Source: a virus. Taken from it: a DNA stretch of 46,644 nucleotides. Location of the stretch: positions 1 through 46,644 of IMG/VR virus record IMGVR_UViG_3300032299_001584. One strand, 5' to 3'. Position numbers and translations under genes: made by a program. Positions 927 through 36,719 of the stretch are shown here, piece after piece (the stretch's first letter is position 1; each line of letters begins with the position of its first letter). Below the pieces are notes generated by a model. That model saw nothing but the letters and a program-made list of their open reading frames with translations, did not search any database and was not told the origin of the DNA.

Positions 927-927
927 T

Positions 928-2618: not shown

Positions 2619-2619
2619 T

Positions 2620-3456: not shown

Positions 3457-3457
3457 T

Positions 3458-5309: not shown

Positions 5310-6803
5310 TCAAAAATAGACATTTTGCGCTGCTGGCGAGAACGCGGTACCTAATCCCTGAACAATAACAACGTGGTAGTAGAGGTTAGCACCGAAGATA
5401 TTATCAACGACACCATAACGTGTAAGCAAGCCTACACGCGGTGCGAAGTCATTCGGACCAATTGTTCTCTGTACCATGATAGGAATGTATGGGCAGTAGA
5501 TGATACCTGTATCATAGAATTCTGAACCCTTGTAGCCAAGAAGTGCATATTCAATTGATCCGGTGAAGTTGTTAGTGTAGCCAGTGTTTCCATAAGAACC
5601 ACCTGCACCACCGTATTGTACTTCAGTACGGGTATCACGGTATACCGAGAATCTTCCACCAACGGAGCCTACCTTAGCAACACCAACTGGTTGTGTTGAA
5701 ACGTCACCTTGTACAGGTACCCACTGGAATTCAGGGAGCATCTCAAGGATCGCGCAAACACGTGGTGTAGCAACGATGAAGTTAGCAGCACCGCGTCTGT
5801 TACGAACTGCGATTCTGTTTGCTTCAATGATAAGCTTTTGATAGAAGTCTCTGTTTCTCTCAACGAGCCATCTGCCGTCTGCAGAAGCTGGAGACCAGAA
5901 TGAGTAACCAGCACCTGCACCACCATTGAGTGCAGATTGGATCATTCTTACGATCATTTCACGGTCGATTTCTGCTTGGATCTCATACGACATAGCGTTT
6001 GTGATCTCAGCATCGATATCGATACCGTTCATGTTCTTAAGGTCTTGCTCTAATTCAACGGACCAGCGAGCGCCAAGTCTGCGAGTACCAGCTTCAACAG
6101 CGGTCTTCTCAAACTTAACCTCTACTTGCGGGATGTTACCGGTGATTTCAAACGCTGATAAGATCTGGGCAACGCCGCGATCTTGTTCAGAGAAGTTCCA
6201 GACATTGTTTACACCAGAAAGTCTTTGTGAAGACGAGCCAGTGAAACGAGTGTCGAGGAATTGGTAGCCAAGCTCGCGCTGATCACCGCCTACGTTACCG
6301 GTGTAACCTGCGTTAACACCGATAGGATTACCAGCACCTGTTGTAGAAGCACCGATAGGTCCAGCAGTACCGTCAATTCCGTTACCTAAGTTTTGGGAAT
6401 TGTACTGATAGCGAAGAGCGAAAGCAAGACCAACTGGACCGGACATAGGCTGAACGCCTACGATCTCGTTGGAGATAAGCTCAGGAAAGGTACGACGGAT
6501 CATCGGAATGAGGATCTTTGGAAGACGTGAATCACCTTGTGCATAGCTATCTGTTGAATTAATGCTACCAGCTTGAGGATTATATCCTGTAGTAGCACCA
6601 CCACCAAAAACACCGGTATTATTTGCTTCTGTTAAGCACCAGTTTTCTTGGTTTTCAAGTAGAATAGCAGTATTGAGGCGAGCACTCTCGTCTTTAATTT
6701 CCTTTACCGAATCAGAAGAATAGTTAAGAACTGGAGCCCACTTTTCGAGTAGTGCTTCTGCTCTTGATCTATCTACAAATGATTGTGTCGGACGAATTTT
6801 CAT
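5310..6803 (-). CDS. 23: Major capsid protein gp23
   Basis: This 497-aa protein forms the hexamers of the T4-type capsid (HK97 fold). Recognisable conserved stretches are IVGVQPMSGPVGLAFALRY near 118-136, the ARWSVELEQDLKNMNGIDID block in the middle, IQAEIDREM, and a C-terminal YCPYIPIMVQRTI and LLTRYGVVDNIF. The N-terminus carries the prohead-protease site: CLTE-A at 56-60 fits cleavage after E59 by gp21, matching LTE-A in T4 gp23. Length is close to the T4 protein (521). It has an unusually good expression setup for this genome: a late box 62 nt upstream, an AAAGGA Shine-Dalgarno and a strong terminator. Confidence 0.96.
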   Translation of the reverse strand: MKIRPTQSFVDRSRAEALLEKWAPVLNYSSDSVKEIKDESARLNTAILLENQENWCLTEANNTGVFGGGATTGYNPQAGSINSTDSYAQGDSRLPKILIPMIRRTFPELISNEIVGVQPMSGPVGLAFALRYQYNSQNLGNGIDGTAGPIGASTTGAGNPIGVNAGYTGNVGGDQRELGYQFLDTRFTGSSSQRLSGVNNVWNFSEQDRGVAQILSAFEITGNIPQVEVKFEKTAVEAGTRRLGARWSVELEQDLKNMNGIDIDAEITNAMSYEIQAEIDREMIVRMIQSALNGGAGAGYSFWSPASADGRWLVERNRDFYQKLIIEANRIAVRNRRGAANFIVATPRVCAILEMLPEFQWVPVQGDVSTQPVGVAKVGSVGGRFSVYRDTRTEVQYGGAGGSYGNTGYTNNFTGSIEYALLGYKGSEFYDTGIIYCPYIPIMVQRTIGPNDFAPRVGLLTRYGVVDNIFGANLYYHVVIVQGLGTAFSPAAQNVYF

Positions 6804-6865: not shown

Positions 6866-7723
6866 TTATTTATATCTTTGTAATTCTGAGATATAAGGGT
6901 TAAATTCTTTTACTTGCTTAGGTTGTTGAGTAGATTCTTTAATAACAGGAGCATCTGCCTTAACTTTTCTCTCGTTAAATGCTTGCTCTTTAATTATATC
7001 TATTCTTTCTTGCTCTTTTTTATCAAAAAGTCTTAAAGTATAATCAAAGTTTTCTTCGATAAACTTAGGAGACTTATCGCCAAGCACTCTCTTAATGTAT
7101 TCTCTTTTCTTTTCCGAAAGACTTGAAGTTTTTGATTCAAGAATAAGAGCTGATTTTGTCTTTAAGTAATTTTCTTTAATGAGAGCGTTTTCTTTAGAAA
7201 GACCTTCAACCTTCTTTGTGAGCTCATCTATTTGCTTCTTACCATCAACTACTGCATCTTGAACTGATTCACTCATTAAAGCTGAATCAATTGCAAGAAC
7301 CTTGCGTAAGTTACCAAGAACTTCTCTTGCTGTTCTATTTTTGGTTGCTTCGCTGATAGCTTCAGTTGGAATAGCTTCGTCAATAAACTCTTCTAAATAG
7401 TTAGAAATTGACTCTACTAAGGCTTCTTTAAAGCTGCTAGCTTCGTTAGTAAGCTCTGTTTCATATCTCTTAACAACTTTTACAAGCTTATTAGAGTTAT
7501 TTTTATCAATAGCTTCAACCACTCTCTTTAATTTGGTAGTGTGATCTTTATCAATTGCGGCTATTAACTGCTCCAATTTCTTAGCATAAAGATCATCTTG
7601 TTGAGCTAATGCTGATTCAACGGTAAGTTCTAATTTTTTAGTAAAAGCGGCTTCTATAACTTGAAGAGACTCTTCAGTTAAAACTTGCTTTGCTTCGTCT
7701 GTTAGTAGTGTAGATACTTTCAT
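6866..7723 (-). CDS. 22: Prohead core scaffolding protein gp22
   Basis: This 285-aa protein is highly charged and nearly all helical, with heptad-like stretches (about 40-120 and 160-200), as expected for the T4 scaffold that shapes the prohead and is later destroyed by gp21. Several hydrophobic-x-E sites suited to gp21 are visible, for example VIEA near the N-terminus. The C-terminal ISELQRYK resembles the conserved scaffold end used for shell contact. It sits between the small core protein and gene 23, the T4 order. It starts 3 nt after the preceding stop with no Shine-Dalgarno, so translation is probably coupled. Confidence 0.85.
   Translation of the reverse strand: MKVSTLLTDEAKQVLTEESLQVIEAAFTKKLELTVESALAQQDDLYAKKLEQLIAAIDKDHTTKLKRVVEAIDKNNSNKLVKVVKRYETELTNEASSFKEALVESISNYLEEFIDEAIPTEAISEATKNRTAREVLGNLRKVLAIDSALMSESVQDAVVDGKKQIDELTKKVEGLSKENALIKENYLKTKSALILESKTSSLSEKKREYIKRVLGDKSPKFIEENFDYTLRLFDKKEQERIDIIKEQAFNERKVKADAPVIKESTQQPKQVKEFNPYISELQRYK
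6867..6874 (-). promoter_or_regulatory. Late promoter of gene 23 (TATAAATA)
   Basis: Exact T4 late consensus TATAAATA on the minus strand, overlapping the stop codon of gene 22 and lying 63 nt before the gene 23 ATG. Unlike most other late boxes here it leaves room for a real 5' leader. Confidence 0.75.
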
Positions 7724-8001: not shown

Positions 8002-8009
8002 TATTTATA
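8002..8009 (-). promoter_or_regulatory. Late promoter box (TATAAATA) for prohead core gene
   Basis: Exact TATAAATA on the minus strand, 5 nt before the ATG at 7996 and overlapping the stop codon of gene 21. Confidence 0.6.
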
Positions 8010-8670
8010 TCGAACGGATAAATTTTAGTATATGTTCTCTTAAAAATGCATCAACTCCTTTAGTAGGTAGATTACTAATAGATTTAGCAAAATTTTCATA
8101 TACTTCTTCATATTTACCGTTATCTGCCACTACCCACTGTTTCGACTCTAAAATCCCATTTACAAAAGCTTTAGGAAATGATGGATCAGCAACACAGTCT
8201 ACTGCTACCAACTTAAGATTTCTAACAACATTGTGGCTTGTACCCTCTTCAAGAGTTCCAAGTGCTCTGGATGACATACCTACTTTAACACCGTCATTGA
8301 TGAGTGATCTAACTATCATACCACATGGTGTTGAGAGAACTTTTGATTTACCATAAAATACATTATTGTCTTCGTAAAGCTCGGTTACCATATGACAAGC
8401 TCTTTCAAGATCAACGTCAGCAGATGCAGGATGATTAAGCTCTCCCATAGCTCTTCCCGGTATAACCATTTCTTCGTTATATCTTTGAACCTCTCTTCTT
8501 AGCTCATCTATAGGATACATTCTCTTATTTTTATTAACTCCTTCTGCCATCATGTAGGGACCCTTAATAAACAGGGTTGAAGGTGCATTTCTGTTAGACT
8601 CTTCAACTACATATTCGAACTGATCGTCTAATGCTGGGTTCTCTACTAATAGGTTAAGCTTTAATGCCAT
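8005..8670 (-). CDS. 21: Prohead core protease gp21
   Basis: This 221-aa serine protease (T4 gp21 type, peptidase family S77) processes gp23, the scaffold and core proteins in the prohead. Diagnostic motifs are NKNKRMYP near 46-53, MGELNHP with the catalytic-type His at about 80, and VGMSSRALG with the catalytic Ser at about 133-134. Length matches T4 gp21 (212). It is encoded between the head-completion gene and the core genes, as in T4-like phages. A late-type TATAAATA box overlaps the first base of its ATG, so that box cannot make a full-length message for this gene. Transcription from upstream is more likely. Confidence 0.93.
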   Translation of the reverse strand: MALKLNLLVENPALDDQFEYVVEESNRNAPSTLFIKGPYMMAEGVNKNKRMYPIDELRREVQRYNEEMVIPGRAMGELNHPASADVDLERACHMVTELYEDNNVFYGKSKVLSTPCGMIVRSLINDGVKVGMSSRALGTLEEGTSHNVVRNLKLVAVDCVADPSFPKAFVNGILESKQWVVADNGKYEEVYENFAKSISNLPTKGVDAFLREHILKFIRSI

Positions 8671-26539: not shown

Positions 26540-26545
26540 ATGTAT

Positions 26546-26573
26546 ATTATGTACTAGTATTAGTTAGAATCAA
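26546..26573 (-). promoter_or_regulatory. Early-type promoter of queE
   Basis: Minus strand TTGATT (26568-26573), 16-nt spacer, CATAAT (26546-26551), 6 nt, ATG at 26539. Confidence 0.5.
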
Positions 26574-26582
26574 GTGTTTTTG

Positions 26583-26590
26583 AATAAATA
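26583..26590 (+). promoter_or_regulatory. Late-type box (AATAAATA) before phoH
   Basis: AATAAATA on the plus strand ending 7 nt before the ATG at 26598. It overlaps a weak early-like -10 (AATACT, 26587-26592), so timing of phoH is unclear. Confidence 0.45.
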
Positions 26591-26597
26591 CTAATGC

Positions 26598-27347
26598 ATG
26601 ACTCACAAGTCCCCTGCGCGTAAGCGTAAAAATGCAGGTTTGGATGAATTAACAGAAATTGAGAATTCTATTCAAAAAAACTGGCTTTTTAATTTTAAAA
26701 TTAAAAAGCCCTTCTACTTCAACACTAACCACAAAGCGTTTTATGAATGTATAAAGCGTGAAGAGACCAATATGGTCTTTGTAGATGGTCCTGCAGGTAG
26801 TGCAAAAAGTTATATTGCTGTACTAGCAGGTTTAGAGCTCATTAAAGATCAGAGAACAAAAGGTATAACTTATATAAGATCAGTGATAGAATCTGCGTCT
26901 AGATCTATTGGAGCTCTTCCAGGTGAGGTAGATGATAAGTTTTTACCATATGCTATGCCTCTTATTGAGAAAGTCAAAGAGGTTACAGATGATAGTACAT
27001 GCGGGTTACTACAGTCTAGTAACATTATACATGCAGTACCTGTTAACTTTGTACGAGGCTTAACCTTTAATGACTCTGTAGTTATAGTAGACGAGGCGCA
27101 AAACCTAACTAAGGGTGAACTAGTTACAATATTAACACGCTTTGGTAAAAATACAAAATATATAGTTTGTGGTGATTTAAAGCAATCTGACATTGGTAAA
27201 GCTTCGGGATACGAAGAGATATTTAAACGCTTCGATAATGAAAAATGCGTAGATAATGAAATCTACGCATTTAAATTTGGTGAAACAGAAATTGTAAGAA
27301 GTAAAATCCTACGATTTATTGTTGATGTTTTAGAAGCTAAACGTTAA
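26598..27347 (+). CDS. phoH: PhoH-like ATPase
   Basis: This 249-aa P-loop ATPase of the PhoH family is common in marine phages. Motifs are VFVDGPAGSAKSYIAVLAGL (Walker A, about 61-80), GITYIRSVIESASRSIGALP, VVIVDEAQNLTKGEL (Walker B, about 161-175), and TKYIVCGDLKQSDI (about 187-200). It corresponds to the helicase-like half of PhoH and may act on RNA; the exact role in phages is not settled. Two perfect long inverted repeats sit inside the gene (26683-26710 and 27243-27272). Its stop abuts the stop of the convergent queD with no gap. Confidence 0.9.
   Translation: MTHKSPARKRKNAGLDELTEIENSIQKNWLFNFKIKKPFYFNTNHKAFYECIKREETNMVFVDGPAGSAKSYIAVLAGLELIKDQRTKGITYIRSVIESASRSIGALPGEVDDKFLPYAMPLIEKVKEVTDDSTCGLLQSSNIIHAVPVNFVRGLTFNDSVVIVDEAQNLTKGELVTILTRFGKNTKYIVCGDLKQSDIGKASGYEEIFKRFDNEKCVDNEIYAFKFGETEIVRSKILRFIVDVLEAKR
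26683..26710 (+). repeat. Perfect 28-bp palindrome inside phoH
   Basis: Two 14-nt arms with no spacer (GGCTTTTTAATTTT and its complement), at +86 to +113 of the coding region. It can form an RNA hairpin or a DNA cruciform. Confidence 0.85.
27243..27272 (+). repeat. 12-bp perfect inverted repeat near the end of phoH
   Basis: Arms AAATGCGTAGAT (27243-27254) and its complement (27261-27272) with a 6-nt loop, inside the coding region. No T-run follows directly, so it is not a typical terminator. Confidence 0.85.
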
Positions 27348-28004
27348 TCAACCCCAGGAGGTTCCTGCAAATATATTACCTAGACCTTGCGAGGTATTAG
27401 GACCTACATGAGCAGCATTAGTGTTAATGGCTGGTGCTGGTTTTATATCTTCTTCTACGCGCTCTAACTTAGTAATACTCTCACCGGGTTCAGTATTGGT
27501 TGATGTATTAATAGTTACGTCATTAAGAGTGACAGTTTGATTGCTCATACTAACTGAAGTGCTCTGCGTAGTAAATGTCGCAGAGTTTTCTTCATGCTCA
27601 AATACCTCAACTTTATCAACCCAGCACCTACCATTAGTAAGAGATTTAATATAGCTATTTGCAATACTATGCACAACTTCTGCTACTCTTTCAATACCTA
27701 CCCCCTTTTCAAGAACTCTAAGTTGAATAATTCCCTTCTTATCGAGTTCCTCGAACGTTGCGAGCTCTGGATCGTCAGCTGCTACGGTAGTAGTATGATC
27801 AAAGACGTGCTGTAGCTTCGCCTTTAGTTCCTTTAATCCACCGAAATCTACAATCCAATTTTTCTCATCTAGAGCCGAACCTCCAAACCAGAGCTTAGCT
27901 TTAAGTTGATACCCATGCAAGAATCTGCAATTTGAATGGGTTGCACGCCATTGTCTAAATGCACATGAACCAAGCTCAATAATTTTTGTACTTTGATAAC
28001 TCAT
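27348..28004 (-). CDS. queD: 6-carboxytetrahydropterin synthase-like protein QueD
   Basis: The product resembles the phage and proteobacterial QueD subgroup that makes 6-carboxytetrahydropterin from dihydroneopterin triphosphate. Visible are CAFRQWRATHSNCRFLHGYQ with the catalytic-type Cys and two zinc-type His, NWIVDFGGLKELKAKL, and VFDHTTTVAADDPE. The usual third ligand of the HGH motif is Tyr here (HGY). The C-terminal 60 residues are an extra Ser/Thr/Asn-rich tail. ATG at 28004 is chosen over the one at 28025; both overlap the upstream gene. It works between FolE and QueE. Confidence 0.78.
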   Translation of the reverse strand: MSYQSTKIIELGSCAFRQWRATHSNCRFLHGYQLKAKLWFGGSALDEKNWIVDFGGLKELKAKLQHVFDHTTTVAADDPELATFEELDKKGIIQLRVLEKGVGIERVAEVVHSIANSYIKSLTNGRCWVDKVEVFEHEENSATFTTQSTSVSMSNQTVTLNDVTINTSTNTEPGESITKLERVEEDIKPAPAINTNAAHVGPNTSQGLGNIFAGTSWG

Positions 28005-28893
28005 ACTTATTATTATATGAGTCATTTAATAAATTCAACTGTTTTAACAGATTAATTTGTGTTTTTTCTGCTATTAAGTTATCCTTAAATACTTTTTTAA
28101 TTAAGTTAATATCGTCTTGATTAAGCATGTCATCAGGAGCTTTATTGGTTATAACCTTTAAAGCATCTAACACGCTTACTACACCACTGTCTCTTGTTAT
28201 TTCTTTTAATTCACGTGAACTTAAATTAAAGGCTCTTTTAATGACTGTAGCATATTCATCTAGTGTAGGTGAACTAGGATTAGTAATTCTACCAATGTAA
28301 GGAGCAACTGACTTATCATAATTTTTTATAATACTGTCATCTTTAGTAGTAATTGCATTACCGTTTTCATCTTTTAACTCAACCAAACTAAACTTACGAT
28401 CGCTGCCTCTTAATACTGTTGCAACACCTCTTACTAGTGCTGATCCACCTATTTGTTCAATAGAGTTTCCCGTTGTTTCATTATATTTTCTTGCTTCGAA
28501 ATATACAAAAAATCTATTTCCCTTTGTTTCTTTCGGATTAATAGAATCTCGAAGATCTAAGTTAACACTCGAATCTTGTTGCTTTTCAATAATTTTTATC
28601 GATTTAGGATCAAAAATAGAGCTATATTTACTTTTTAGCTCGTTTTCTACGAATAATTCAGGAGTTGATGCTAATTGTCTTTCTGCTTCCGCTTTATATC
28701 CGCTAACCATACCCTTTGCGCCTTGTTTTGCTACATTGAATATACTCGCACTTGTATCTGCCGCTGCTACATCTTTTGCTACCTGTTTAGCTGCTCCCAC
28801 AACTCCTCCTATAGCACCTCCTAATGTTTTAGCTGCTCCTCTTCTTATAGAATCTAAAAAACCTTCACTTAGTAAATCTTTTTGAGTCATCAT
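27976..28893 (-). CDS. Putative internal virion protein (unknown)
   Basis: Not recognised at family level. The 305-aa product starts MMTQKDLLSEGFLDSIRRGA: a short helix ending L-S-E before G, which fits a gp21-type cleavage site. After that comes an Ala/Gly-rich amphipathic part (about 20-50: GGAIGGVVGAAKQVAKDVAA). The rest is mixed charged, with a FFVYFEARKYNET strand near 130. It has two tandem TATAAATA boxes at its start, so late expression is likely. A packaged, membrane-active or DNA-bound internal protein is possible; this is inference. Confidence 0.5.
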   Translation of the reverse strand: MMTQKDLLSEGFLDSIRRGAAKTLGGAIGGVVGAAKQVAKDVAAADTSASIFNVAKQGAKGMVSGYKAEAERQLASTPELFVENELKSKYSSIFDPKSIKIIEKQQDSSVNLDLRDSINPKETKGNRFFVYFEARKYNETTGNSIEQIGGSALVRGVATVLRGSDRKFSLVELKDENGNAITTKDDSIIKNYDKSVAPYIGRITNPSSPTLDEYATVIKRAFNLSSRELKEITRDSGVVSVLDALKVITNKAPDDMLNQDDINLIKKVFKDNLIAEKTQINLLKQLNLLNDSYNNKYELSKYKNY

Positions 28894-28913
28894 ATTTATA
28901 TTATATATTTATA
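28893..28913 (-). promoter_or_regulatory. Two tandem TATAAATA late boxes
   Basis: Exact copies on the minus strand at 28906-28913 and 28893-28900, the second touching the ATG. Only the upstream one leaves space for a transcript that includes the start codon. Confidence 0.55.
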
Positions 28914-28914
28914 A

Positions 28915-29697
28915 TCATTTAATGATTTCTAATATATTTGAATATAGCCAATATACTTTAACGTTTTTAGATATTTTCTTTGCTCGAGATAACTTTAGCT
29001 GATCCCATACATAAGATTGATACTTGGTTGTTTTCTCATTCTTATACGGTGTAGCTTTACTCCACGGGTCGTTTAAAATGTCTCGCTTTGTATAGTGCCA
29101 CGGGCCATTAATTTCAATAATTGTATTTATTTCTTTATTATCATCAAAGATAACAAGGTCATAAAAACAATATTTTTTATTTATTATATTAAAGAACTCA
29201 CGGTCATTTGTACCGCCTAAGTAGTAACATTTATCTTCATTTATATTGTTATTACTGATATACTCTCTAATAAACTCATATGCAGGCTTAGAAAATCTCG
29301 AAGTCATATAGCCAGCTTCAAAGAGCTTATGCATAGAAATTCTACGCTTTATTTTTGTTTCTAGTCTGTTAGCAGCTTCTTTAATACGTTTTTTTCTCAG
29401 ACCTGGATTTTTGTAATTACCGCATTTTTTCTTTCGTATTTGAATTTGCTTAAAATCTGTCATCTGATGTGTTGTCTTTATCTTTCTTATTTCTTTCATT
29501 CTCGATGCAACCTCTTTACCAAATCTCTCTTCATAACTTTTACCGCGGCAGTAGTTAACGCGGGTAAATCTTAGTTTTTCGTCTACAACTTTAGATATAT
29601 TAAACTTCAGCTTATATTCCTCAATAGTCATATTATGCTGCTTTAAGTGAGTATTATTAATAAATTTTAACTTTCGATTACAAACCAAACATTCCAT
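28915..29697 (-). CDS. Putative homing-type endonuclease (zinc finger plus Vsr-like core)
   Basis: This 260-aa basic protein has an N-terminal ECLVCNRKLKFINNTHLKQH finger-like motif (C-x2-C...H-x4-H, about 2-21) followed by MTIEEYKLKFN, as in MucR/ROS-like modules. Then comes a Lys/Arg-rich linker (about 65-120). The C-terminal region, YDLVIFDDNKEINTIIEINGPWHY (positions about 180-203), has D...E-x-N-G-x-W-H like Vsr and the EDxHD group of phage homing nucleases. It may be a free-standing mobile endonuclease. It has a CATAAATA box 11 nt upstream. Confidence 0.6.
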   Translation of the reverse strand: MECLVCNRKLKFINNTHLKQHNMTIEEYKLKFNISKVVDEKLRFTRVNYCRGKSYEERFGKEVASRMKEIRKIKTTHQMTDFKQIQIRKKKCGNYKNPGLRKKRIKEAANRLETKIKRRISMHKLFEAGYMTSRFSKPAYEFIREYISNNNINEDKCYYLGGTNDREFFNIINKKYCFYDLVIFDDNKEINTIIEINGPWHYTKRDILNDPWSKATPYKNEKTTKYQSYVWDQLKLSRAKKISKNVKVYWLYSNILEIIK

Positions 29698-29708
29698 AAT
29701 AGTAATAA

Positions 29709-29716
29709 TATTTATG
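29709..29716 (-). promoter_or_regulatory. Late-type box (CATAAATA)
   Basis: Minus strand CATAAATA, 11 nt before the ATG at 29697, in the divergent gap with folE. Confidence 0.5.
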
Positions 29717-29762
29717 CTCGCACCATCACTTTTCTGCAGTTTTAAAATAATTTGATTTTAGG

Positions 29763-29791
29763 TTGATTTTATGGATACTGACATATATATT
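29763..29791 (+). promoter_or_regulatory. Early-type promoter of folE
   Basis: TTGATT (29763-29768), 17-nt spacer, TATATT (29786-29791), 7 nt, ATG at 29799. It supports the internal ATG over the longer TTG-started reading at 29763. Confidence 0.55.
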
Positions 29792-29798
29792 AGATGTA

Positions 29799-30437
29799 AT
29801 GAATGATATTCCCTTCTCAAACAGTAACATTGTATTGACCGAATCTGAAAAAAATAAACGCATTACTAAAGCTTCCGAGCACTTTGGTAAGTTTATGAAT
29901 GTTTTAGGTTTTGATTTTCGAAACGATCCAAACTCTATTGATACGCCTAGGCGTGTAGCTAAAGCTATTGTAAACGATATCTGTTCAGGTTGTTTTACTC
30001 CACCGCCAAACATTACCGCCTTCGATAATGTAGATCAGTATGACGGTATTGTATGTCAGAATAATATCAAGATGACCTCTATTTGCGCTCATCACTGGCT
30101 TCCCTTTACTGGTACAGCTCACGTAGCGTATATTCCATCAAAAACAGGAAAAGTTATAGGCCTTAGTAAGCTTAATCGTATTGTTGATTGGTTTGCAAGG
30201 CGCCCTCAAGTACAAGAAAATCTTACAATTCAAATTCATAACTTCGTTAATGATGTGTGTAAAGACAATCAAGGTGTAGCTGTTATGATTGAGGCAAATC
30301 ACACTTGCTGCGCTTTGAGAGGTATTAAGCATGATAGTTCGATGAGAACAGCAAAGATGTCTGGAGCATTTCTTGATAATAATGATAATAGCAGATCTGA
30401 GTTTTATAAATTTGTAGAATTTAGTAAAGATAAATAG
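29799..30437 (+). CDS. folE: GTP cyclohydrolase I FolE
   Basis: This enzyme of about 212 aa converts GTP to dihydroneopterin triphosphate, the first step toward folate and 7-deazaguanines. Clear motifs are [34 protein letters not shown] with zinc ligands Cys and His, [20 protein letters not shown], and [14 protein letters not shown] with the second zinc Cys. Length and order match bacterial FolE (about 222). ATG at 29799 is chosen because the promoter covers the sequence before it and because the upstream codons do not look like FolE. With queD and queE it gives three of the four steps to preQ0. Confidence 0.92.
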
Positions 30438-30457: not shown

Positions 30458-31057
30458 ATGAATATTTTTGTTACTAATGAAGATCCCGTGTTAGCAGCAC
30501 GGGATCTTTGTGATAAACATGTTAGATCTAAAATGCAAATTGAGGGAGCTATTATGTTAGCTCATGCTTTTCCTCAAGATATTTTAGATCATCCTTCTAC
30601 ACCGAGAACAAAATCCGGTAAACCGCGTAAATCTGGTAAAGGATACTCAAAGCATCAATGCTCTATATGGGCTCGCGAATCTAAAGATAACTTTATGTGG
30701 CTGGTTAATCATACTCTAGAGCAATTTGAAGAGAGAATGTTTAGATGGCCGAATTCTGCTGAGCACTTTACGAAGGAATTTATTGTATGGTGCAGTAAAA
30801 ATTTACACAATACAACGATTGAAAAAACTACTCTTACACCATACGCTATTGCAATAGGAGTAGATTGCATTTGTCGTAAAGTAATTCCTAATTTTGATAG
30901 TCTTACAGCAGTAGAACAATACAGAAATTATATCATACACGATAAAGATTTCGCATTATGGACGCGAAGAGAATCTCCTAGTTGGTATAATCAACTTCAA
31001 TCTGATCCCCGGCAATATGATTTGAATTTACATCAATCAAAGCGTCGAGCTGCTTAA
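30458..31057 (+). CDS. Conserved phage protein with N-terminal DKHV motif
   Basis: The 199-aa product begins MNIFVTNEDPVLAARDLCDK then HV, and IEGAIMLAHAF. This D-P-x-x-A-A-x-x-L-x-D-K-H-V pattern is seen in hypothetical proteins of many marine T4-like phages. It is loosely similar to pyrimidine-dimer glycosylase-like (Pyr_excise) proteins, but no catalytic proof is visible. It lies 20 nt after folE, probably co-transcribed. An 11-bp stem-loop sits at +23 to +51. Its last 80 nt overlap the end of the convergent minus-strand gene. Confidence 0.6.
   Translation: MNIFVTNEDPVLAARDLCDKHVRSKMQIEGAIMLAHAFPQDILDHPSTPRTKSGKPRKSGKGYSKHQCSIWARESKDNFMWLVNHTLEQFEERMFRWPNSAEHFTKEFIVWCSKNLHNTTIEKTTLTPYAIAIGVDCICRKVIPNFDSLTAVEQYRNYIIHDKDFALWTRRESPSWYNQLQSDPRQYDLNLHQSKRRAA
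30480..30508 (+). repeat. 11-bp perfect stem-loop just after a start codon
   Basis: Arms AAGATCCCGTG (30480-30490) and its complement (30498-30508) with a 7-nt loop, at +23 to +51 from the ATG of the 199-aa gene. Confidence 0.85.
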
Positions 31058-31418
31058 TAAAGTCCTTACCAATAAGAACTTTATATTCGTTCTGCGACCT
31101 GTTACCAATACTAAAAGGTATATTATCAAATTCCGTACCTGCAAACTTCATTCTAAAAGTAACAACCGGTCTTTCCTCTACGTGACCTGCACCTACATTA
31201 ATATTAATTGTATCCTGAACGTCCTTTATAATTCTCTTACCTCCTATGGTAGTAAAGGTTACCTTATTACCTTGCTTTGTTATATTTTCGCCATGTAACA
31301 CATTATAGGCTCCATTACCAGAATCTATCTTAGCTTCAAGCGAGCCAATACCAGCAAGCTCTATTTTTTCAATAAGGCCTATAACCGTAGCTTCAAAGAA
31401 TTTCTTAAAACTTTTCAT
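30978..31418 (-). CDS. Retropepsin-like aspartyl protease domain protein
   Basis: From the ATG at 31418 the product is 146 aa. IEKIELAGIGSLEAKIDSGN (about 16-35) has the D-S-G of a retropepsin-type catalytic loop, as in the RimK-linked protease family (usually D-T-G). VTFRMKFAGTEF and YKVLIGKDFIKQLD (about 111-124) match the later strands, the second like the L-x-G-R-D-F-L signature of the family. The leader MKSFKKFFEA ends in F-F-E before A, suitable for gp21. A GTG at 31472 would extend the gene into the upstream one; the ATG overlaps its stop by one base (TGATG). Substrate unknown. Confidence 0.62.
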   Translation of the reverse strand: MKSFKKFFEATVIGLIEKIELAGIGSLEAKIDSGNGAYNVLHGENITKQGNKVTFTTIGGKRIIKDVQDTININVGAGHVEERPVVTFRMKFAGTEFDNIPFSIGNRSQNEYKVLIGKDFIKQLDALIDVNSNHIAGDQIEVDYTN

Positions 31419-31909
31419 CAGTGACATTCTGGACAACCTCCGCAAGTGCAGCCCTGCTTTGCATAGGAGCAACCTGCATCTTCATGACCTGTATTATACA
31501 TGTCCTCTTCCTCGTGATTGCAACCACCGGTCTCACCTCCCTCGTGTTGTTTAAACTCCATCCAGTGATAAACAGATGATATATAATCCGATGCTTTAGT
31601 TATTTTCGATGCTATCCAACCCTCTAGACCTGACATCTGCTGAACCATTTCTTTTAATTTTGGAGCATATTCTGCAATCTTATGAAGCTCTGCCGATGCC
31701 ATTTCTATCTCGCTAGGGTCACTCTCACCCTCATGCTCCATGTGCTCCTCTTCGTGAGACTCATGCCCTTCATGATCTATTTCTGCACCAGGCATATCCA
31801 TAGTTATCATTACAGGCTTACCTCCTAACATGCTTGAAGGTGTGAGAGATATACCTCCTACATCGCTATAAGCTTCTGACAACATCTTTAAATCTTCTCT
31901 TTTAGACAT
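31418..31909 (-). CDS. His/Glu-rich protein with C-terminal cysteine cluster
   Basis: This 163-aa protein has four parts. The N-terminal leader reads DLKMLSEAYSD (L-S-E before A, gp21-like). A His/Glu/Asp-rich stretch spans about 43-66. The helical core EGWIASKITKASDYISSVYH (about 96-115) is a pattern also present in hypothetical proteins of marine T4-like phages. The C-terminus is rich in metal-type residues, with cysteines at 130, 147, 154, 156, 159 and 162 plus several His. It probably binds zinc or other metal ions. A CATAAATA late box stands 5 nt upstream. The function is unknown. Confidence 0.6.
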   Translation of the reverse strand: MSKREDLKMLSEAYSDVGGISLTPSSMLGGKPVMITMDMPGAEIDHEGHESHEEEHMEHEGESDPSEIEMASAELHKIAEYAPKLKEMVQQMSGLEGWIASKITKASDYISSVYHWMEFKQHEGGETGGCNHEEEDMYNTGHEDAGCSYAKQGCTCGGCPECH

Positions 31910-31914
31910 ATTAT

Positions 31915-31922
31915 TATTTATG
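31915..31922 (-). promoter_or_regulatory. Late-type box (CATAAATA)
   Basis: Minus strand CATAAATA, 5 nt before the ATG at 31909 and overlapping the end of the nucleotidyltransferase gene. Confidence 0.5.
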
Positions 31923-32451
31923 CTATACCTAATATCTTCTTAATTCTTTCCTTATCTGTTTGCTTAATAATTTCTGGTACGAAGAAATCTAATGATGAAG
32001 GATCCTTAGACATTATTTTTTCTCTTGTTGATGTACCTCTTACACCTTCACCGCTTAGAGGTATATCTATTATTTGAACGTTAGGATATTTTTCAGGATT
32101 TTTACGAAATGAATTATATCTCGCACTATCTTCTGGCCCTGCGCCAACTACGATATTTAAGTCAGGATTAGCTAATGCATAATCGTAGGTAGAATTTAAA
32201 GGCGTAACAGGACTTTTATAAATTTCGACAGGTCTAGATAAGTAGGGAGCATATATACTCCATATCAAATATGACATTTCTTGATCTATACCATCACGAG
32301 GACTTTTACCTATAAATACTACACCTTTATCTGATTTTTTTAGTAATTCACCTAATGCTTCAAAATGACCCTTTGTCGGTGGCTTAAATCCGCCTGGAAA
32401 AATTGCCACTGTTTCCTTGTTCTGCTCGAAGTATAACTTAAAATTTATCAT
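31918..32451 (-). CDS. HIGH-superfamily nucleotidyltransferase (NadM/cytidylyltransferase-like)
   Basis: This 177-aa protein has VAIFPGGFKPPTKGHFEALG (about 16-35), a variant of the G-x-F-x-P-x-H-x-G-H motif with T-K-G-H in place of H-x-G-H. Later come GVVFIGKSPRDG and NIVVGAGPED (about 98-107), and RGTSTREKIM (about 137-146), the S-S-T-x-x-R equivalent. The family joins a nucleotide to a phosphate-bearing small molecule (NAD, FAD, CoA or CDP precursors). The loss of the first His is notable. It overlaps the ligase-like gene upstream by 4 nt (ATGA). The N-terminus MINFKLYFEQ is a short leader of the operon type. Confidence 0.75.
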   Translation of the reverse strand: MINFKLYFEQNKETVAIFPGGFKPPTKGHFEALGELLKKSDKGVVFIGKSPRDGIDQEMSYLIWSIYAPYLSRPVEIYKSPVTPLNSTYDYALANPDLNIVVGAGPEDSARYNSFRKNPEKYPNVQIIDIPLSGEGVRGTSTREKIMSKDPSSLDFFVPEIIKQTDKERIKKILGIA

Positions 32452-34142
32452 ATACGTCCTTTATTTTTATGGAAAGTAGGAGATATTACCTTAAATGTAA
32501 ATACCTCGTCTGCCTGTAATATTTTTATAACTAACCCTTCATAATCACCTAACTTACCTGCTAGTTTTCCGAGCTTACGAAGTATTTTTGTATGCATTCT
32601 ACGTTGGTAGGGTAGTAGAACTTTAATCAGGTGCGATCTCATGGCTTTTTTGGCTATTTGATCTTCTCTCTTTCTCGAATTATTATATAGTACTTCTTCA
32701 TAATTAGGATTCTGCGACTCGAATGTTTTTATTTCTTGTACTGCATTATCTGTCTCGTATTTTAAATTAATAGGCTCGAAGACATCAATACCAAGAGGGA
32801 TGAACTTAACACTATCATTTGATAAATCTGTTAGGCTTCTAGTTATATCCTCAACGACATCATTAGAAATCTCTGAGCCCTCATAATCTGTAACGCCTAT
32901 GAGAGGGAAGGTAGACCATACGCCTAATTTATCTTTCTCGTAATTAGTTGCTACAAAATAGACAATCCCTGGAGCCTCGTCGCGTGATAGAGCAAAAGGC
33001 GAATATAGCCATTCTGCTTGAACTCTTATACCATTTAAATTTAGATCTTTTTTATATCTTAATAAGGACTTAAAAACTAATTTCTTGATTTTATTAAAAT
33101 TTTCTTCAAATGCTCGTCTTGTAGGCTCGTGTCTTATTTTATTTTTAAAGCTACCGTCAGTAACTGGTCCAGAGTAGCTACCCTGTAGGAAAAATTTATT
33201 ATCTGGTGTTACGCCAAATTTCACTGACATACCATCTGCTTTTTCTGATACACTAGAGTTACCAGGCTGTATAACTCCGTTGGTTTGTTCTAGTGCATCA
33301 AGAAGCTTTACGAAGTTCTCAAAATCCATTGAATATTGATCTGGTTTATATTCTGAGTATAAATGCTGTACCCCTACTCTCTGCCCTGTTACATCAGTAC
33401 TCTCACTAACAATATTAATGTCACCAAATATATCGACTCCGTCTTTTTGAATCGTTTGTCTAGCTTCATCTAAAAGCGACATTACTATGTTTATATCTTT
33501 ATATTTTTTAACCAAAAAGGATATAATGGATTTTATGTTGAAAAGATTCCTTGTACGAGCATTAGAATCACCTAACAATATTTGTGCAACCCTATCTGTA
33601 TCTTTATTTTCAATAGTATTTCCTGTTTGTCTATCTGTAATGCCTTTTAAGCCACTCCATCTTAAATTAAGATTTTTTGCTAAGTTGGATAAAACTATAC
33701 TTCTATACGCTCCTTTCAAAGGAAAGGGCTCATCATTCGCTAGTACAAATTTTGCAAAATTAATATCGGATACTAACATGAAATCAGTCTGTACATACTC
33801 GCTGTCTTTATTTGATATAGGGGTTCTAAAATGAATGCTTATACCTGATCTTGCAATATAATCCTTAGGATTTAAGTTTCGCTCCATGCACCAGTTAGCA
33901 AGAATATCATAGAGTTGAACTTTAGATATTTTATTTTCATTTATAGCTATATCTAAATCGCCGGAAGACTCTCGCTTACCTGTACTACCTAAGAGATTCT
34001 TCATTAAATTAGTACCTACTATATTAGATAAAAAATCTACTGTAGGCTTAATGTCTGATAAATTTATGCGCTGAGTAGGGTACTGTTTAAACACATTACC
34101 TCCCTCTAGTAGAATGTTAAAATATTGACGGAAATTAATCAT
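32448..34142 (-). CDS. Fusion: pol-beta-type nucleotidyltransferase plus ligase-like domain
   Basis: From the ATG at 34142 the product is 564 aa. Domain 1 (about 45-160) shows a nucleotidyltransferase core: GSTGKRESSGDLDIAI (52-67; acidic pair D62/D64) and a third Asp in YVQTDFML near 120. Domain 2 (about 295-564) has the ATP-ligase motifs: EKADGMSVKFG with candidate nucleophile K301, QAEWLYSP near 375, YEGLVIKI near 534, and FKVISPTFHKNK near 550. It could seal or tag nucleic acids, or adenylate another molecule. A TTG start at 34163 was rejected. The leader MINFRQYFNILLEGG ends in L-L-E before G. Confidence 0.68.
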   Translation of the reverse strand: MINFRQYFNILLEGGNVFKQYPTQRINLSDIKPTVDFLSNIVGTNLMKNLLGSTGKRESSGDLDIAINENKISKVQLYDILANWCMERNLNPKDYIARSGISIHFRTPISNKDSEYVQTDFMLVSDINFAKFVLANDEPFPLKGAYRSIVLSNLAKNLNLRWSGLKGITDRQTGNTIENKDTDRVAQILLGDSNARTRNLFNIKSIISFLVKKYKDINIVMSLLDEARQTIQKDGVDIFGDINIVSESTDVTGQRVGVQHLYSEYKPDQYSMDFENFVKLLDALEQTNGVIQPGNSSVSEKADGMSVKFGVTPDNKFFLQGSYSGPVTDGSFKNKIRHEPTRRAFEENFNKIKKLVFKSLLRYKKDLNLNGIRVQAEWLYSPFALSRDEAPGIVYFVATNYEKDKLGVWSTFPLIGVTDYEGSEISNDVVEDITRSLTDLSNDSVKFIPLGIDVFEPINLKYETDNAVQEIKTFESQNPNYEEVLYNNSRKREDQIAKKAMRSHLIKVLLPYQRRMHTKILRKLGKLAGKLGDYEGLVIKILQADEVFTFKVISPTFHKNKGRI

Positions 34143-34268
34143 TTTGTGATAATATGTTTTCAAGTTCAGAAGTTCCTAAATCAATTTTAGATATATTTGC
34201 TTTATTAAGCTTTTCGTCCTTTTTGCTTCCTCATCTATATAAAGTTTTTCAAGATTCCAATTAGGCAT
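34135..34268 (-). pseudogene. Small gene needing a -1 frameshift (44 aa)
   Basis: Frame 1 opens at ATG 34268 and reads MPNWNLEKLYIDEEAKR, then soon stops. A -1 shift at the A-AAA-AGG site (run of five A) continues as DEKLNKANISKIDLGTSE and ends at 34135. The two ends each overlap the neighbours by 8 nt in the same manner (ATG-CC-TAA and ATG-AT-TAA), which supports one real gene across both frames. It is either programmed frameshifting, a true mutation, or a lost A in the assembly. The product would be a small acidic helical protein of unknown function. Confidence 0.6.
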
Positions 34269-34938
34269 TGCTTAGGTTGTCTTCTACTTCTTTATCTTCT
34301 AGGGATTGACTTAAAATATTCTGAATAGTTTCTACTATTTTTTCTGGATCTGAATCAGCAAACTCATTTACAACAGGCTTTATTATCATGAGCTCATCAT
34401 CTGTTGGAGCATGCTTTAGGGCCTTAAGTATTAGTTCTTTATAGAGTGGAAAGATTTCCGCTAAATTTAATCCTCCATTCTTGTTTAAATTTGAACCTAC
34501 CGGTTGAGGTACTTCACCCTTAGTTACTGGTGGCGTGTCGGTTTGAGGTTCAGTAGCGTCAGCTGGCTGTTCCATTAACAGGGTGAATTTATTTAATAAA
34601 GAAAGAGTCTTTGACTCTATCCTCAAGCTTTTATCTATAGCTATAACTTTTTTAATTTCATCTACTATTTTAGCTACAGTAACATTTACCATTCCTTTTA
34701 TTTGATCTATTTTATTAAAGACATACTTTTGTTTTTCTTTATCAAATAGAGTAGGGTTGAAAATAAACGAGTTGGTGAGAATCTTGATTACGTACTTTTC
34801 ATTTTCATCTAAAGTAGTAGGTTGTTTGGGTTGTACTGGCGTCGCTTGACCTGGTGCACCTGCATCTATTTGCTCCTCAGGAGCCTGCTCCCCTAGTAGC
34901 TTATAATACCTAGATATAAGTTGTAGTGTTTTAGACAT
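34261..34938 (-). CDS. Hypothetical protein of late operon (225 aa)
   Basis: Not recognised. The leader MSKTLQLISRYYKLLGEQAP is an amphipathic helix ending L-G-E before Q. Two Pro/Gln/Thr-rich linkers (about 20-42 and 124-147) separate two helical, charged domains. The layout looks like a small internal or scaffold-like protein. There is no enzymatic motif. It starts right at the stop of the 122-aa gene (1-nt overlap) and overlaps the next small gene by 8 nt, so all are coupled. Packaging role is inferred from the leader only. Confidence 0.5.
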   Translation of the reverse strand: MSKTLQLISRYYKLLGEQAPEEQIDAGAPGQATPVQPKQPTTLDENEKYVIKILTNSFIFNPTLFDKEKQKYVFNKIDQIKGMVNVTVAKIVDEIKKVIAIDKSLRIESKTLSLLNKFTLLMEQPADATEPQTDTPPVTKGEVPQPVGSNLNKNGGLNLAEIFPLYKELILKALKHAPTDDELMIIKPVVNEFADSDPEKIVETIQNILSQSLEDKEVEDNLSNA

Positions 34939-35306
34939 TATTGTAGTTTTGATAAGCTGTCTGCTAATTTTGTAATTGCCGGGTTAATTATAGGTCTTTT
35001 TATTCTTGCAATATCTTTTAGTCTCTTAAGTCTTGCTGCTGTATCTTTGTCGCCCATATCACTCAGGGCTTCTGCTCCTGCATAAATCTCATTATCTTCT
35101 TCTGGGGTAGAGCTTAAATCGGAACCCTTACTGATAGCATTTTGTATCTTAGCAAATACTTCATCTGCGTATGTTGTACCTCTTAATTGAATTGGCTCAT
35201 ATCCAATATCATTTCCCTTATCATCTACAAGCTTAAGGTAGAAGATTGCTTGAGGATTATCTATATTTGCTAGATTTTCACCTACTATTTTCAGAAACTT
35301 ACTCAT
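34938..35306 (-). CDS. Hypothetical protein of late operon (122 aa)
   Basis: Not recognised. N-terminus MSKFLKIVGENLANID gives a short amphipathic leader ending V-G-E. The following part has a strand YLKLVDDKGNDIGYEPIQLR (about 23-42) and then a helix-rich region with charged residues. No motif for catalysis or membrane insertion is visible. A GATAAATA late-type box lies 5 nt upstream. It overlaps the next gene by one base. Confidence 0.5.
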   Translation of the reverse strand: MSKFLKIVGENLANIDNPQAIFYLKLVDDKGNDIGYEPIQLRGTTYADEVFAKIQNAISKGSDLSSTPEEDNEIYAGAEALSDMGDKDTAARLKRLKDIARIKRPIINPAITKLADSLSKLQ

Positions 35307-35311
35307 AAGTA

Positions 35312-35319
35312 TATTTATC
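35312..35319 (-). promoter_or_regulatory. Late-type box (GATAAATA)
   Basis: Minus strand GATAAATA, 5 nt before the ATG at 35306; it spans the stop codon of the upstream gene. Confidence 0.45.
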
Positions 35320-35734
35320 TAAATAAAGCTAATTTGTTACTAACTTGCTTTAGATAAACGCTACTTAAATAAGTAAATCCATTTTTCTTTAGGTATTTTA
35401 TAAAATTTTTTACAAAATTAGTACTTTTTTCAACTCTAAAAAGTTCCATCTTGTTAGCAATCTCATCAACTACTTTGAGATATTCCTCAGTATACTCTTC
35501 TCTTTTAATAAACATATGAGAGTATTGTAATATAGTCTTCTTAAACTCACACAACTCAATAATAAGATTATGTTTTAATAGTTTTTGTACATCTTTATTA
35601 TTTGCGTCAAAAGATAAATTTAAATCTATTAATTGTGACGTGGTTTTATTATATGCACTATTTAATACTTCATTAAGACAGATAGCGCTTTGGCTTTGAC
35701 ACTCTGAGATTAATGATTCCGTTATAATAGTCAT
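35315..35734 (-). CDS. Hypothetical helical protein (139 aa)
   Basis: Not recognised. The start ATG at 35734 is fixed by a strong Shine-Dalgarno (AGGAGGTG) 10 nt upstream; a longer reading from 35758 lacks one. The product begins MTIITESLISE and is mostly helical and basic toward the C-terminus (FVKNFIKYLKKNGFTYL, about 114-130). The gene overlaps the end of the GIY-YIG gene by 62 nt, an unusually long overlap for this genome. It may be a small late protein linked to the nuclease by coupled translation. Confidence 0.55.
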   Translation of the reverse strand: MTIITESLISECQSQSAICLNEVLNSAYNKTTSQLIDLNLSFDANNKDVQKLLKHNLIIELCEFKKTILQYSHMFIKREEYTEEYLKVVDEIANKMELFRVEKSTNFVKNFIKYLKKNGFTYLSSVYLKQVSNKLALFR

Positions 35735-36083
35735 CTCGTAATAGCACCTCCTCTTCAAATTGAATTTTAGCTTCTCTGTATGCTAGTGCAAATTTAGAAT
35801 CACAAAGCTCTAATATTTCAAATTTAAAATTTTCCTTACCATATTTTGCAATATCTTCATTAAGCTCACGCGAAGAAGATGTGTAAGACTTCCAATCTGT
35901 CTCTATTATTTCATGCCTTTTGTTTTTCATACCTTTTAACGGACGTCTCTTAAGGACGGATTGGCATTGCTTTTTACCTATATACTTTTTATTTGTTACT
36001 AAACAGGTTATTTTGTAAATAAACCCGTAAGGTGTAATACCCTCTTCAATTATAAGACTAGTACTCCAGTGTCCTAAATCCAT
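35673..36083 (-). CDS. GIY-YIG endonuclease domain protein
   Basis: This 136-aa protein has a GIY-YIG core: YGFIYKITCLVTNKKYIGKK (about 18-37) as the paired Y-x-Y...Y-I-G strands, then a Lys/Arg-rich loop, TSSSRELNEDIAKYGKENFK (about 68-87) and LELCDSKFALAYREAKIQFE with the metal-binding-type Glu near 107. The domain is frequent in T4-like phages, both in homing (Seg-like) and resident enzymes. No separate DNA-binding module is seen, so it is a minimal form. It starts at the stop of the 71-aa gene. Confidence 0.78.
   Translation of the reverse strand: MDLGHWSTSLIIEEGITPYGFIYKITCLVTNKKYIGKKQCQSVLKRRPLKGMKNKRHEIIETDWKSYTSSSRELNEDIAKYGKENFKFEILELCDSKFALAYREAKIQFEEEVLLRDDYYNGIINLRVSKPKRYLS
35745..35752 (-). 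promoter_or_regulatory. Strong Shine-Dalgarno (AGGAGGTG) inside the GIY-YIG gene
   Basis: Minus strand AGGAGGTG, 10 nt before the ATG at 35734. It is the best ribosome-binding site seen in the window and lies in the coding region of the upstream gene. Confidence 0.75.
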
Positions 36084-36298
36084 TATTTTTTAGATTTATT
36101 TTTTTTATGGCGCTTTTTACGTTTAAGCTTACCTGCTCTAGTATAAACCGCTCCCCCCTTTGGTATTCTTACATCACCAGGTGCGTAAAAATCTGAGCCA
36201 GATATATTATCAGGTGAAAATCCCCCGGTACCGCCTAGAACTGCACCTGCAGTCATATTTTCATAAAAAAATTGTTTAAATGTTACAGTTGATTTCAC
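36083..36298 (-). CDS. Small basic protein with cargo-type leader (71 aa)
   Basis: It starts with GTG. The product opens TVTFKQFFYENMTAGAVLGG, a leader of the F-K-x-F-F type, followed by GFSPDNISGSDFYAPGDVRIP (a pattern seen in small proteins of marine T4-like phages) and a very basic tail (KLKRKKRHKKNKSKK). The tail suggests DNA or RNA contact. It heads the late minus-strand operon; a TATAAATA box stands 9 nt before the start. A packaged DNA-binding protein is a reasonable guess. Confidence 0.6.
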   Translation of the reverse strand: MKSTVTFKQFFYENMTAGAVLGGTGGFSPDNISGSDFYAPGDVRIPKGGAVYTRAGKLKRKKRHKKNKSKK

Positions 36299-36317
36299 TT
36301 CAATAAGTATTTATAAT
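36289..36317 (+). promoter_or_regulatory. Early-type promoter of uvsY/uvsW
   Basis: TTGATT (36289-36294), 17-nt spacer, TATAAT (36312-36317), 6 nt, GTG at 36324. The -10 overlaps a minus-strand late box (36308-36315). Confidence 0.6.
36308..36315 (-). promoter_or_regulatory. Late promoter (TATAAATA) of the 31-36 kb minus operon
   Basis: Exact consensus on the minus strand, 9 nt before the GTG at 36298. It shares bases with the divergent early -10 box, so the two promoters cannot be open at once. Confidence 0.6.
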
Positions 36318-36323
36318 AATTCT

Positions 36324-36719
36324 GTGGAATTGCTAAAAAGATATAAAGAAGAAATTGGTCCGGATCTACTAATTACAGATTTTAATATTAAAGAGATGCA
36401 ATTAAAACTACCATCACGCAAGCATTTCTGGGCTGCAAGGTTAATTGATGCAAAAATAACACTTCAATCCTTACTTAAAAAGAAGAAAAATTTAAAAAAA
36501 GCTTTAGTTACAAAAATTATTGCTGAGGCTCCGGTAAAATTAACTCAGCAGACTGCAGAAATAGCAGCAGAAGCCTCAGAAGATATGACATTATTAGCAG
36601 ACTCTATAAAGGAATACGAATTTATTATAGAGTATCTTGAAAAGATTGAAAAAATTATGTCGGGTATGGGCTATGATATTAAAAATATCATAGAAATACA
36701 GAAGCTTGAGCAGTTATGA
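36324..36719 (+). CDS. uvsY: Recombination mediator UvsY
   Basis: This 131-aa helical protein has the size and pattern of T4 UvsY (137 aa), which loads UvsX recombinase on ssDNA covered by gp32. The N-terminal part is basic (KLPSRKHFWAARLIDAKITL, about 28-47), the middle is helical, and the C-terminal MGYDIKNIIEIQKLEQL corresponds to the conserved G-F/Y-x-I-K-x-I ending. It starts with GTG. It overlaps uvsW by 4 nt, an order found in T4-like phages. An inverted repeat (36671-36693) lies near its end. Confidence 0.82.
   Translation: MELLKRYKEEIGPDLLITDFNIKEMQLKLPSRKHFWAARLIDAKITLQSLLKKKKNLKKALVTKIIAEAPVKLTQQTAEIAAEASEDMTLLADSIKEYEFIIEYLEKIEKIMSGMGYDIKNIIEIQKLEQL
36671..36693 (+). repeat. 10-bp inverted repeat near the end of uvsY
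   Basis: Arms CTATGATATT (36671-36680) and its complement (36684-36693) with a 3-nt loop, about 23 nt before the uvsW start codon. Confidence 0.75.

Follow-up and report, generated by a model that had tools for sequence, protein, structure and literature searches.

The minus-strand genes between positions 30,978 and 36,298 of IMG/VR virus record IMGVR_UViG_3300032299_001584 raise the question of whether a short leader shared by the N-termini of several proteins directs a set of enzymes into a phage head. The window, meaning the entire stretch of 46,644 nucleotides (46.6 kb) that was analyzed, is a fragment of a T4-like phage and contains gp21, gp22, gp23, gp20, uvsW, uvsY (PF11056), gp46/47, gp43 and a gp55-like sigma factor. 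Its gp23 is ~35% identical to that of Prochlorococcus phage P-HM2. Genes lacking a T4 name are designated by their lower coordinate (Table 1). Judged from the sequence, this locus is likely a T4-type capsid-cargo operon encoding several leadered enzymes, with a probability of roughly 0.8. The window possesses the leaders, conservation at the positions critical in T4, an intact prohead protease together with a gp23 cleavage site, and late-type promoters. By analogy with T4, we infer that this phage packages, cuts and injects the proteins; what the enzymes do is likewise inferred. The operon was found again in 24 IMG/VR contigs, and most of the cargo proteins have no PHROG.

In the capsid targeting sequence (CTS) of the T4 internal protein IPIII, MKTYQEFIAE, targeting depends on residues 4 and 7 and processing on residues 8 and 10 (PMC9026906). 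The T4 record gives the same start for IPII and MKTFKEF for IPI. The initial annotation had quoted eight N-termini from the window, all of which were confirmed, and had taken an ending of hydrophobic-x-Glu as the mark of the leader. This mark proved unspecific, as it occurs at 5.9% of internal Met positions, and it was rejected because control families carry it as well (queD, 10/11; uvsY, 7/10; sigma-55, 6/8; phoH, 5/8). A stricter feature, derived from T4 and not from the window, consists of aromatic residues at positions 4 and 7 followed by a Glu at 9-13. It is present in 31 of 32 distinct N-termini from the 30978, 31918 and 32448 families (every homologue of 31918 and 32448, and 7/8 of 30978) and in one sequence only across ~20 other, neighbouring families. 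Within the leadered homologues the Glu lies at 9, 10 or 13, and the leaders are kept even where the proteins share just 45-60% identity. The proposed comparison with the T4 internal proteins is borne out by this agreement at the mutationally important positions 4 and 7 (PMC9026906). Moreover, replication genes, in which leader frequency had been suggested as a check, do not carry the strict leader in this neighbourhood, nor do metabolism genes.

The training set of a leader profile consisted solely of the T4 internal proteins plus leaders from cyanophages, with the window excluded. Among the 58 genes of the window, it ranked 30978 first, 36083 second, 31918 fourth and 32448 fifth, and it separated the cargo from the remaining genes with p=9e-5, a value that is optimistic because the sequences are related to one another. 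The third-ranked gene, uvsY (MELLKRYKEE), is a false positive. Of the eight quoted leaders, only those of 30978, 31918, 32448 and 36083 count as strong.

The 31918 protein possesses invariant (T/H)xGH (T26-G28-H29) and C-terminal TxxR (G139 T140 .. R143) motifs, and its closest solved relative is PPAT (PDB profile match, E=3e-4). The leader is present in 12/12 distinct homologues, and most members of a wider set carry it too. Its sequence varies (MINFKLYFE-Q, MKSFKQYFQE-Q, MKTFKKYFLE-Q, MKTFKQFVTE-A, MKSFKLFFE-Q), but positions 4 and 7 stay aromatic and the Glu is kept. A variable linker separates the leader from the enzyme domain. Distant homologues without a leader start at the enzyme domain itself (MKKTAILPGGF, MEKIAILPGGF), and a few homologues have another N-terminal extension (L111, L118, L131).

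In the 32448 protein, the invariant residues are G52 S53, D62, D64 and D120 as well as E300-KADG-304. The predicted cut falls within E13-G14-G15, which is invariant across 13 homologues. Two related proteins, from Sinorhizobium phage Phosso 181 and Flavobacterium phage immuto 181, lack a leader, and their M-GGN start coincides exactly with this cut. Of 48 distinct leaders in the wider GGNVFK family, 46 have Ile or Leu at P3. The search pattern for this set contained EGGNVFK, so P3 alone was read and conservation of the Glu was rejected as evidence. An S77 protease was found in just 1/20 contigs of this set and an S78 protease in none of them; the P3 result therefore supports the type of site and not cutting by gp21 in those phages. 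With regard to the ligase domain, a low-confidence AlphaFold model (pLDDT 68, pTM 0.36), used for this hint only, had T4 RNA ligase 2 as its best Foldseek match (E=1e-3). The protein also has a weak profile match to DUF6267, a domain that other phages carry joined to this nucleotidyltransferase. The DUF6267 hidden Markov model had no match in six related contigs, BLAST revealed no homology between 32448 and HTVC008M gp127, for which the profile comparison was weak, and no paper on DUF6267 was found. Fusions of the GGNVFK nucleotidyltransferase with DUF6267 occur beside primase/helicase genes in L169:2998-4902 and in many IMG/VR contigs (>500 matched), where they have very short starts, e.g., MILKE-GG. 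At the site corresponding to 34143-34260 of the window, relatives hold a further leader-bearing gene of ~416-456 amino acids (L050:7767-9017 and L053:10918-12288, 46% mutual identity). This gene seems to have been lost from the window, where a tail-like remnant, judged by eye, is found upstream of the 32448 gene (..IDLGTSELENILSQ).

The 30978 protein matches PF05618 with 30.8 bits against a cut-off of 27, and the DSGN motif is invariant in this protein and its relatives. Its leader is conserved among 8 distinct homologues. Homologues of 30978 also occur as RimK-RimB fusions, and the fusion from Mosig itself starts with a leader (MQVQPFKNYLEE-A); the leader therefore goes with the N-terminus of a protein rather than with this domain. 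The RimK of Melnitz bears a leader as well (..KFSQFITE-E). RimK was not found in six related contigs, all of which may be incomplete. A relative in YerA41 is labelled a structural protein, but this label is weak and was set aside because 63 proteins, including polymerases, were present in that preparation. RimK-type ATP-grasp proteins with T4-type leaders are encoded in L223:82-1131 (Melnitz) and L062:5032-6417 (Mosig), in phages of a marine methylotroph and SAR11, and their sequences hint at injected ribosome-modifying enzymes.

Additional evidence is provided by published cyanophage virion proteomes; the statements below apply to the available passages of those reports. In Table 3 of the report on Synechococcus phage S-CREM2 (PMC10665884), non-structural proteins detected by mass spectrometry start with MKDFDSFLEE (S-adenosylmethionine [SAM] hydrolase), MKRFDAFLTE (kinase) and MKNFSSFLTE-A (cytidylyltransferase, gp154). 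Further detected starts are MQTFSMFFSE and MNFSEFNE, as well as MKDLHSFLTE, which has one aromatic residue. A rule based on T4 only, requiring an aromatic residue at 3-5, another three residues later and a Glu within four, was matched by 5/12 detected and 0/65 undetected proteins (p=4e-5). This test comprised proteins of at least 100 amino acids from two stretches of the genome (~57%), with those called structural by the authors left out. A slightly wider pattern that was first tried on S-CREM2 was dropped in favor of the earlier pattern and the T4-only rule. Similarly, the cytidylyltransferase of S-SZBM1 (S-SZBM1_140), found in virions by mass spectrometry, starts with MRFRQFIIE-A, and PSSM2_194 of P-SSM2, an orthologue of the cytidylyltransferase in S-SM1 virions, starts with MKSFSQFLTE-T; S-SM1 virions contain its cluster, T4-GC190. 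Published proteomics has thus placed leader-bearing proteins, including cytidylyltransferases, in the virions of related cyanophages. The passages of these papers do not mention a leader or packing signal. S-CREM2 gp12 (L134:7704-10313), which was detected in virions and is annotated as Cas9/Csn1, has no Pfam match and carries RFASFMAE-A near its N-terminus, possibly a capsid leader following a mis-set start.

The transcription signals are of the late type. The T4-type late element TATAAATA, without a -35 box, is found as an exact match before 36083, 27976 and gp68 and as a near match before 31418 and gp21; it is also found near the starts of head genes. In most relatives, it lies 13-17 nucleotides before the start codons of 36083, 27976 and, as [CT]ATAAATA, 31418. 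Several early genes carry TTGA-N-TATAAT instead. The short gap at positions 36298-36324 of the window holds a divergent early/late pair of overlapping promoters, in which TATAAATA serves the cargo operon and TTGATTT..TATAAT serves uvsY. In several early genes of this lineage the -10 box is located only a few nucleotides ahead of the start codon, which suggests that their mRNAs have almost no leader.

Several points weigh against a cargo operon. The p-values are optimistic, as described above. Two of the cyanophage papers stated that contamination could not be excluded, and the S-CREM2 authors noted that CsCl-purified virions may hold contaminants. Across the window, TATAAATA is no more frequent than chance predicts (13 found, 13.7 expected), so only its position and conservation were used. 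Lastly, P3 is aromatic (Phe or Tyr) in 30978, 31918 and 36083, whereas T4 gp21 prefers Leu or Ile, and P1' is frequently Lys, Gln or Arg. These residues, which in 30978 and 31918 depart from the L/I-x-E consensus, also speak for a leader that acts as a packaging or docking peptide and remains attached, such that the proteins enter the head and are not cut by gp21. The separability of targeting (4 and 7) from processing (8 and 10) in T4, where Asp at position 10 stops cutting and leaves targeting unaffected, is compatible with this possibility (PMC9026906). It is nevertheless rather unlikely, because almost every leadered homologue retains a Glu at 9 or 10, whereas the linker that follows is variable. 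Furthermore, the P3 of 32448 is Ile or Leu in nearly all homologues, and the end of its leader coincides exactly with the point where the leaderless homologues naturally start.

Alternatively, the leaders could be amphipathic starts with some other function, e.g., membrane association, protein-protein docking elsewhere than in the head, or efficient translation of an AT-rich genome. AT-rich codons favor starts rich in Lys, Asn, Phe and Ile, and some non-cargo genes such as uvsY have moderate scores. This explanation is improbable, since the pattern is missing from other gene families of the same genomes, is rare at internal Met positions (11/1741), and marks the virion-found proteins of S-CREM2, whose base composition differs. 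Chance or shared ancestry, in the form of paralogues or an N-terminal segment common by descent, is very improbable because the mature proteins have unrelated folds, the same leader occurs on a kinase, a SAM hydrolase, a RimK and a cytidylyltransferase of other phages, and leaders that differ between relatives keep 4/7/E, even though a 5' end duplication between neighbours is conceivable and the 31918 and 32448 leaders both begin with MINF.

Under the capsid-cargo reading, the gp55-type sigma factor and the TATAAATA promoters would drive the synthesis of several leadered proteins late in infection. The leader would dock each protein on the gp22 scaffold core, resulting in its enclosure in the prohead, and the gp21-type protease would then cut after the leader Glu to leave the mature enzyme free inside the head. 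In the next infection, the enzymes would exit with the DNA and act ahead of phage gene expression. The nucleotidyltransferase-ligase 32448 may repair RNA ends early, the NMNAT-like 31918 may function in nicotinamide adenine dinucleotide (NAD) or nucleotide chemistry, and the RimB-like 30978 may process a host target, e.g., ribosomal protein S6.

Table 1. Coordinates of the cargo operon, its signals and the head genes in the window.
Feature	Position	Strand	Remarks
T4-type late promoter element TATAAATA	36308..36315	-	17 nt before 36083 gene; kept in most relatives
36083 gene, 71-aa basic protein	36083..36298	-	First gene of operon; leader MKSTVTFKQFFYE-N, aromatic pair shifted three residues
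SegE-like GIY-YIG homing endonuclease	35673-36083		Inside run; no convincing leader
Protein without assigned role	35315-35740		Inside run; no convincing leader
34938 gene, 122-aa protein	34938..35306	-	Leader MSKFLKIVGE-N, plausible propeptide
34261 gene, 225-aa protein without known fold	34261..34938	-	Leader MSKTLQLISRYYKLLGE-Q, plausible propeptide; E-Q conserved
32448 gene, 564-aa fusion of Pol-beta-type nucleotidyltransferase (GS..DLD..D) and RNA-ligase-like adenylation domain (KADG)	32448..34142	-	Leader MINFRQYFNILLE-GG
Strong leader of 32448 protein	34104..34142	-	Predicted cut E13|G14
31918 gene, HxGH nucleotidylyltransferase (NMNAT/PPAT-like), 177 aa	31918..32451	-	Motifs and PDB profile match
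Strong T4-type leader MINFKLYFE-Q of 31918 protein	32425..32451	-	Conserved in homologues
31418 gene, His/Cys-rich 163-aa protein	31418..31909	-	Leader-like DLKMLSE-A; late-type element CATAAATA upstream
30978 gene, RimB-like/retropepsin-like putative protease (PF05618), 146 aa	30978..31418	-	PF05618 E=3e-7
Strong T4-type leader MKSFKKFFE-A of 30978 protein	31392..31418	-	Top N-terminus of window by outside-trained profile
T4-type late promoter element TATAAATA	28906..28913	-	Before 27976 gene
27976 gene, 305-aa basic protein	27976..28893	-	Leader MMTQKDLLSE-GF, plausible propeptide
gp21-like prohead protease	8005..8670	-	Peptidase_S77, E=3e-31; GELNHP and SSR motifs intact
gp22-like scaffold core protein	6866..7723	-	Presumed docking partner of leaders
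gp23 major capsid protein	5310..6803	-	Predicted gp21 site CLTE59|A60; E-A kept in relatives; P3 Leu, Met, Cys or Ile

The remaining leader candidates are weaker. The 34261, 34938 and 27976 proteins have a plausible (L/I/V)-x-E site and lack the aromatic pair; the P3 of 34261 fits the L/I preference, and the start of 27976 is similar to that of T4 gp24 (MAKINELLRE-S). The leader proposed for 31418 did not hold up, as no Glu is present at the homologous position in L017, L018, L019 and L022. For this reason 31418 was rejected as cut cargo and is a weak cargo candidate only. While the leader-bearing genes are located where the initial annotation had placed them, their run is not strictly consecutive but is interrupted by two genes.

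Elsewhere in the window, five consecutive genes at 6-4312 encode proteins of ~277-306 amino acids, several of which are alike at their starts and ends (..G(N/K)GLGLP); these are probably paralogous tail or fibre proteins. Homologues of queE, queD and folE at 25778-30437 suggest 7-deazaguanine metabolism or DNA modification.

The set of cargo enzymes had been proposed to be new. Virion enzymes resembling NMNAT or cytidylyltransferase are already known from cyanophages; as far as the literature searches show, the packing signal and the other cargo are new. These searches found no prior operon of several enzymes with a T4-type leader and no prior link between the leader and the cyanophage virion enzymes. 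The cargo operon is very likely real, and its RimB-like protease, NMNAT-like enzyme and nucleotidyltransferase-RNA ligase would make up a new enzyme set. The idea that T4-like phages can use the CTS to package a variety of proteins has been put forward in a review (PMC9026906). The chances are about even that aquatic T4-superfamily phages possess a late-expressed kit of injected enzymes sorted by one modular leader, with virion cargo being predictable genome-wide from sequence. Its enzymes would repair RNA, act in NAD or nucleotide chemistry and modify ribosomes in the manner of RimK/RimB, and would include kinases and SAM hydrolase. Cyanophage proteomics left open whether the virion enzymes are true cargo or contaminants. 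The leader offers an answer and a simple test, because it fits the mutational signal of T4 and separates the virion-found from the undetected proteins of S-CREM2. It would also broaden the internal-protein system of T4, which comprises small basic proteins, into the delivery of multiple enzymes, and provide a sequence rule for predicting the injected effectors of uncultured T4-like phages.

Each part of the proposed system has known counterparts. The 31918 protein shares the HxGH superfamily and the leader with the cyanophage virion NMNAT/cytidylyltransferases (S-CREM2 gp154, S-SZBM1_140 and PSSM2_194/T4-GC190), and in both cases the gene block is near late-sigma, helicase or primase genes, but the sequences are just remotely similar. 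The domain of 30978 is common to RimB/PF05618 and the RimK-RimB fusions of Mosig and YerA41. The Mosig fusion shares the leader as well, whereas 30978 stands alone. In jumbo phages, RlaP and an RNA ligase form a known repair pair (PMC7824862), which, as in 32448, couples a Pol-beta nucleotidyltransferase with an RNA-ligase-like domain. In contrast, 32448 is one fused protein with a capsid leader, and it is a candidate member of RlaP. The ADP-ribosyltransferase Alt of T4 is likewise an enzyme that is carried in the head, processed by gp21 and injected (PMC9026906). However, Alt is a single enzyme with an unrelated activity. Its start is not known to resemble the leader of the internal proteins. 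P1 DarB and the ejection proteins of phiKZ and SPN3US also rely on an N-terminal signal or on processing of cargo by a prohead protease, as proposed here, but with other sequence motifs and other proteases. The closest parallel is to T4 IPI, IPII and IPIII, with which the cargo operon has in common the leader length, the aromatic residues at 4 and 7, the hydrophobic residue at 8 and the terminal Glu, as well as gp21, gp22 and late-type promoters. Despite this similarity, the cargo consists of predicted enzymes and not of small basic inhibitors, the Glu is usually at 9 or 13, and P3 is often aromatic.

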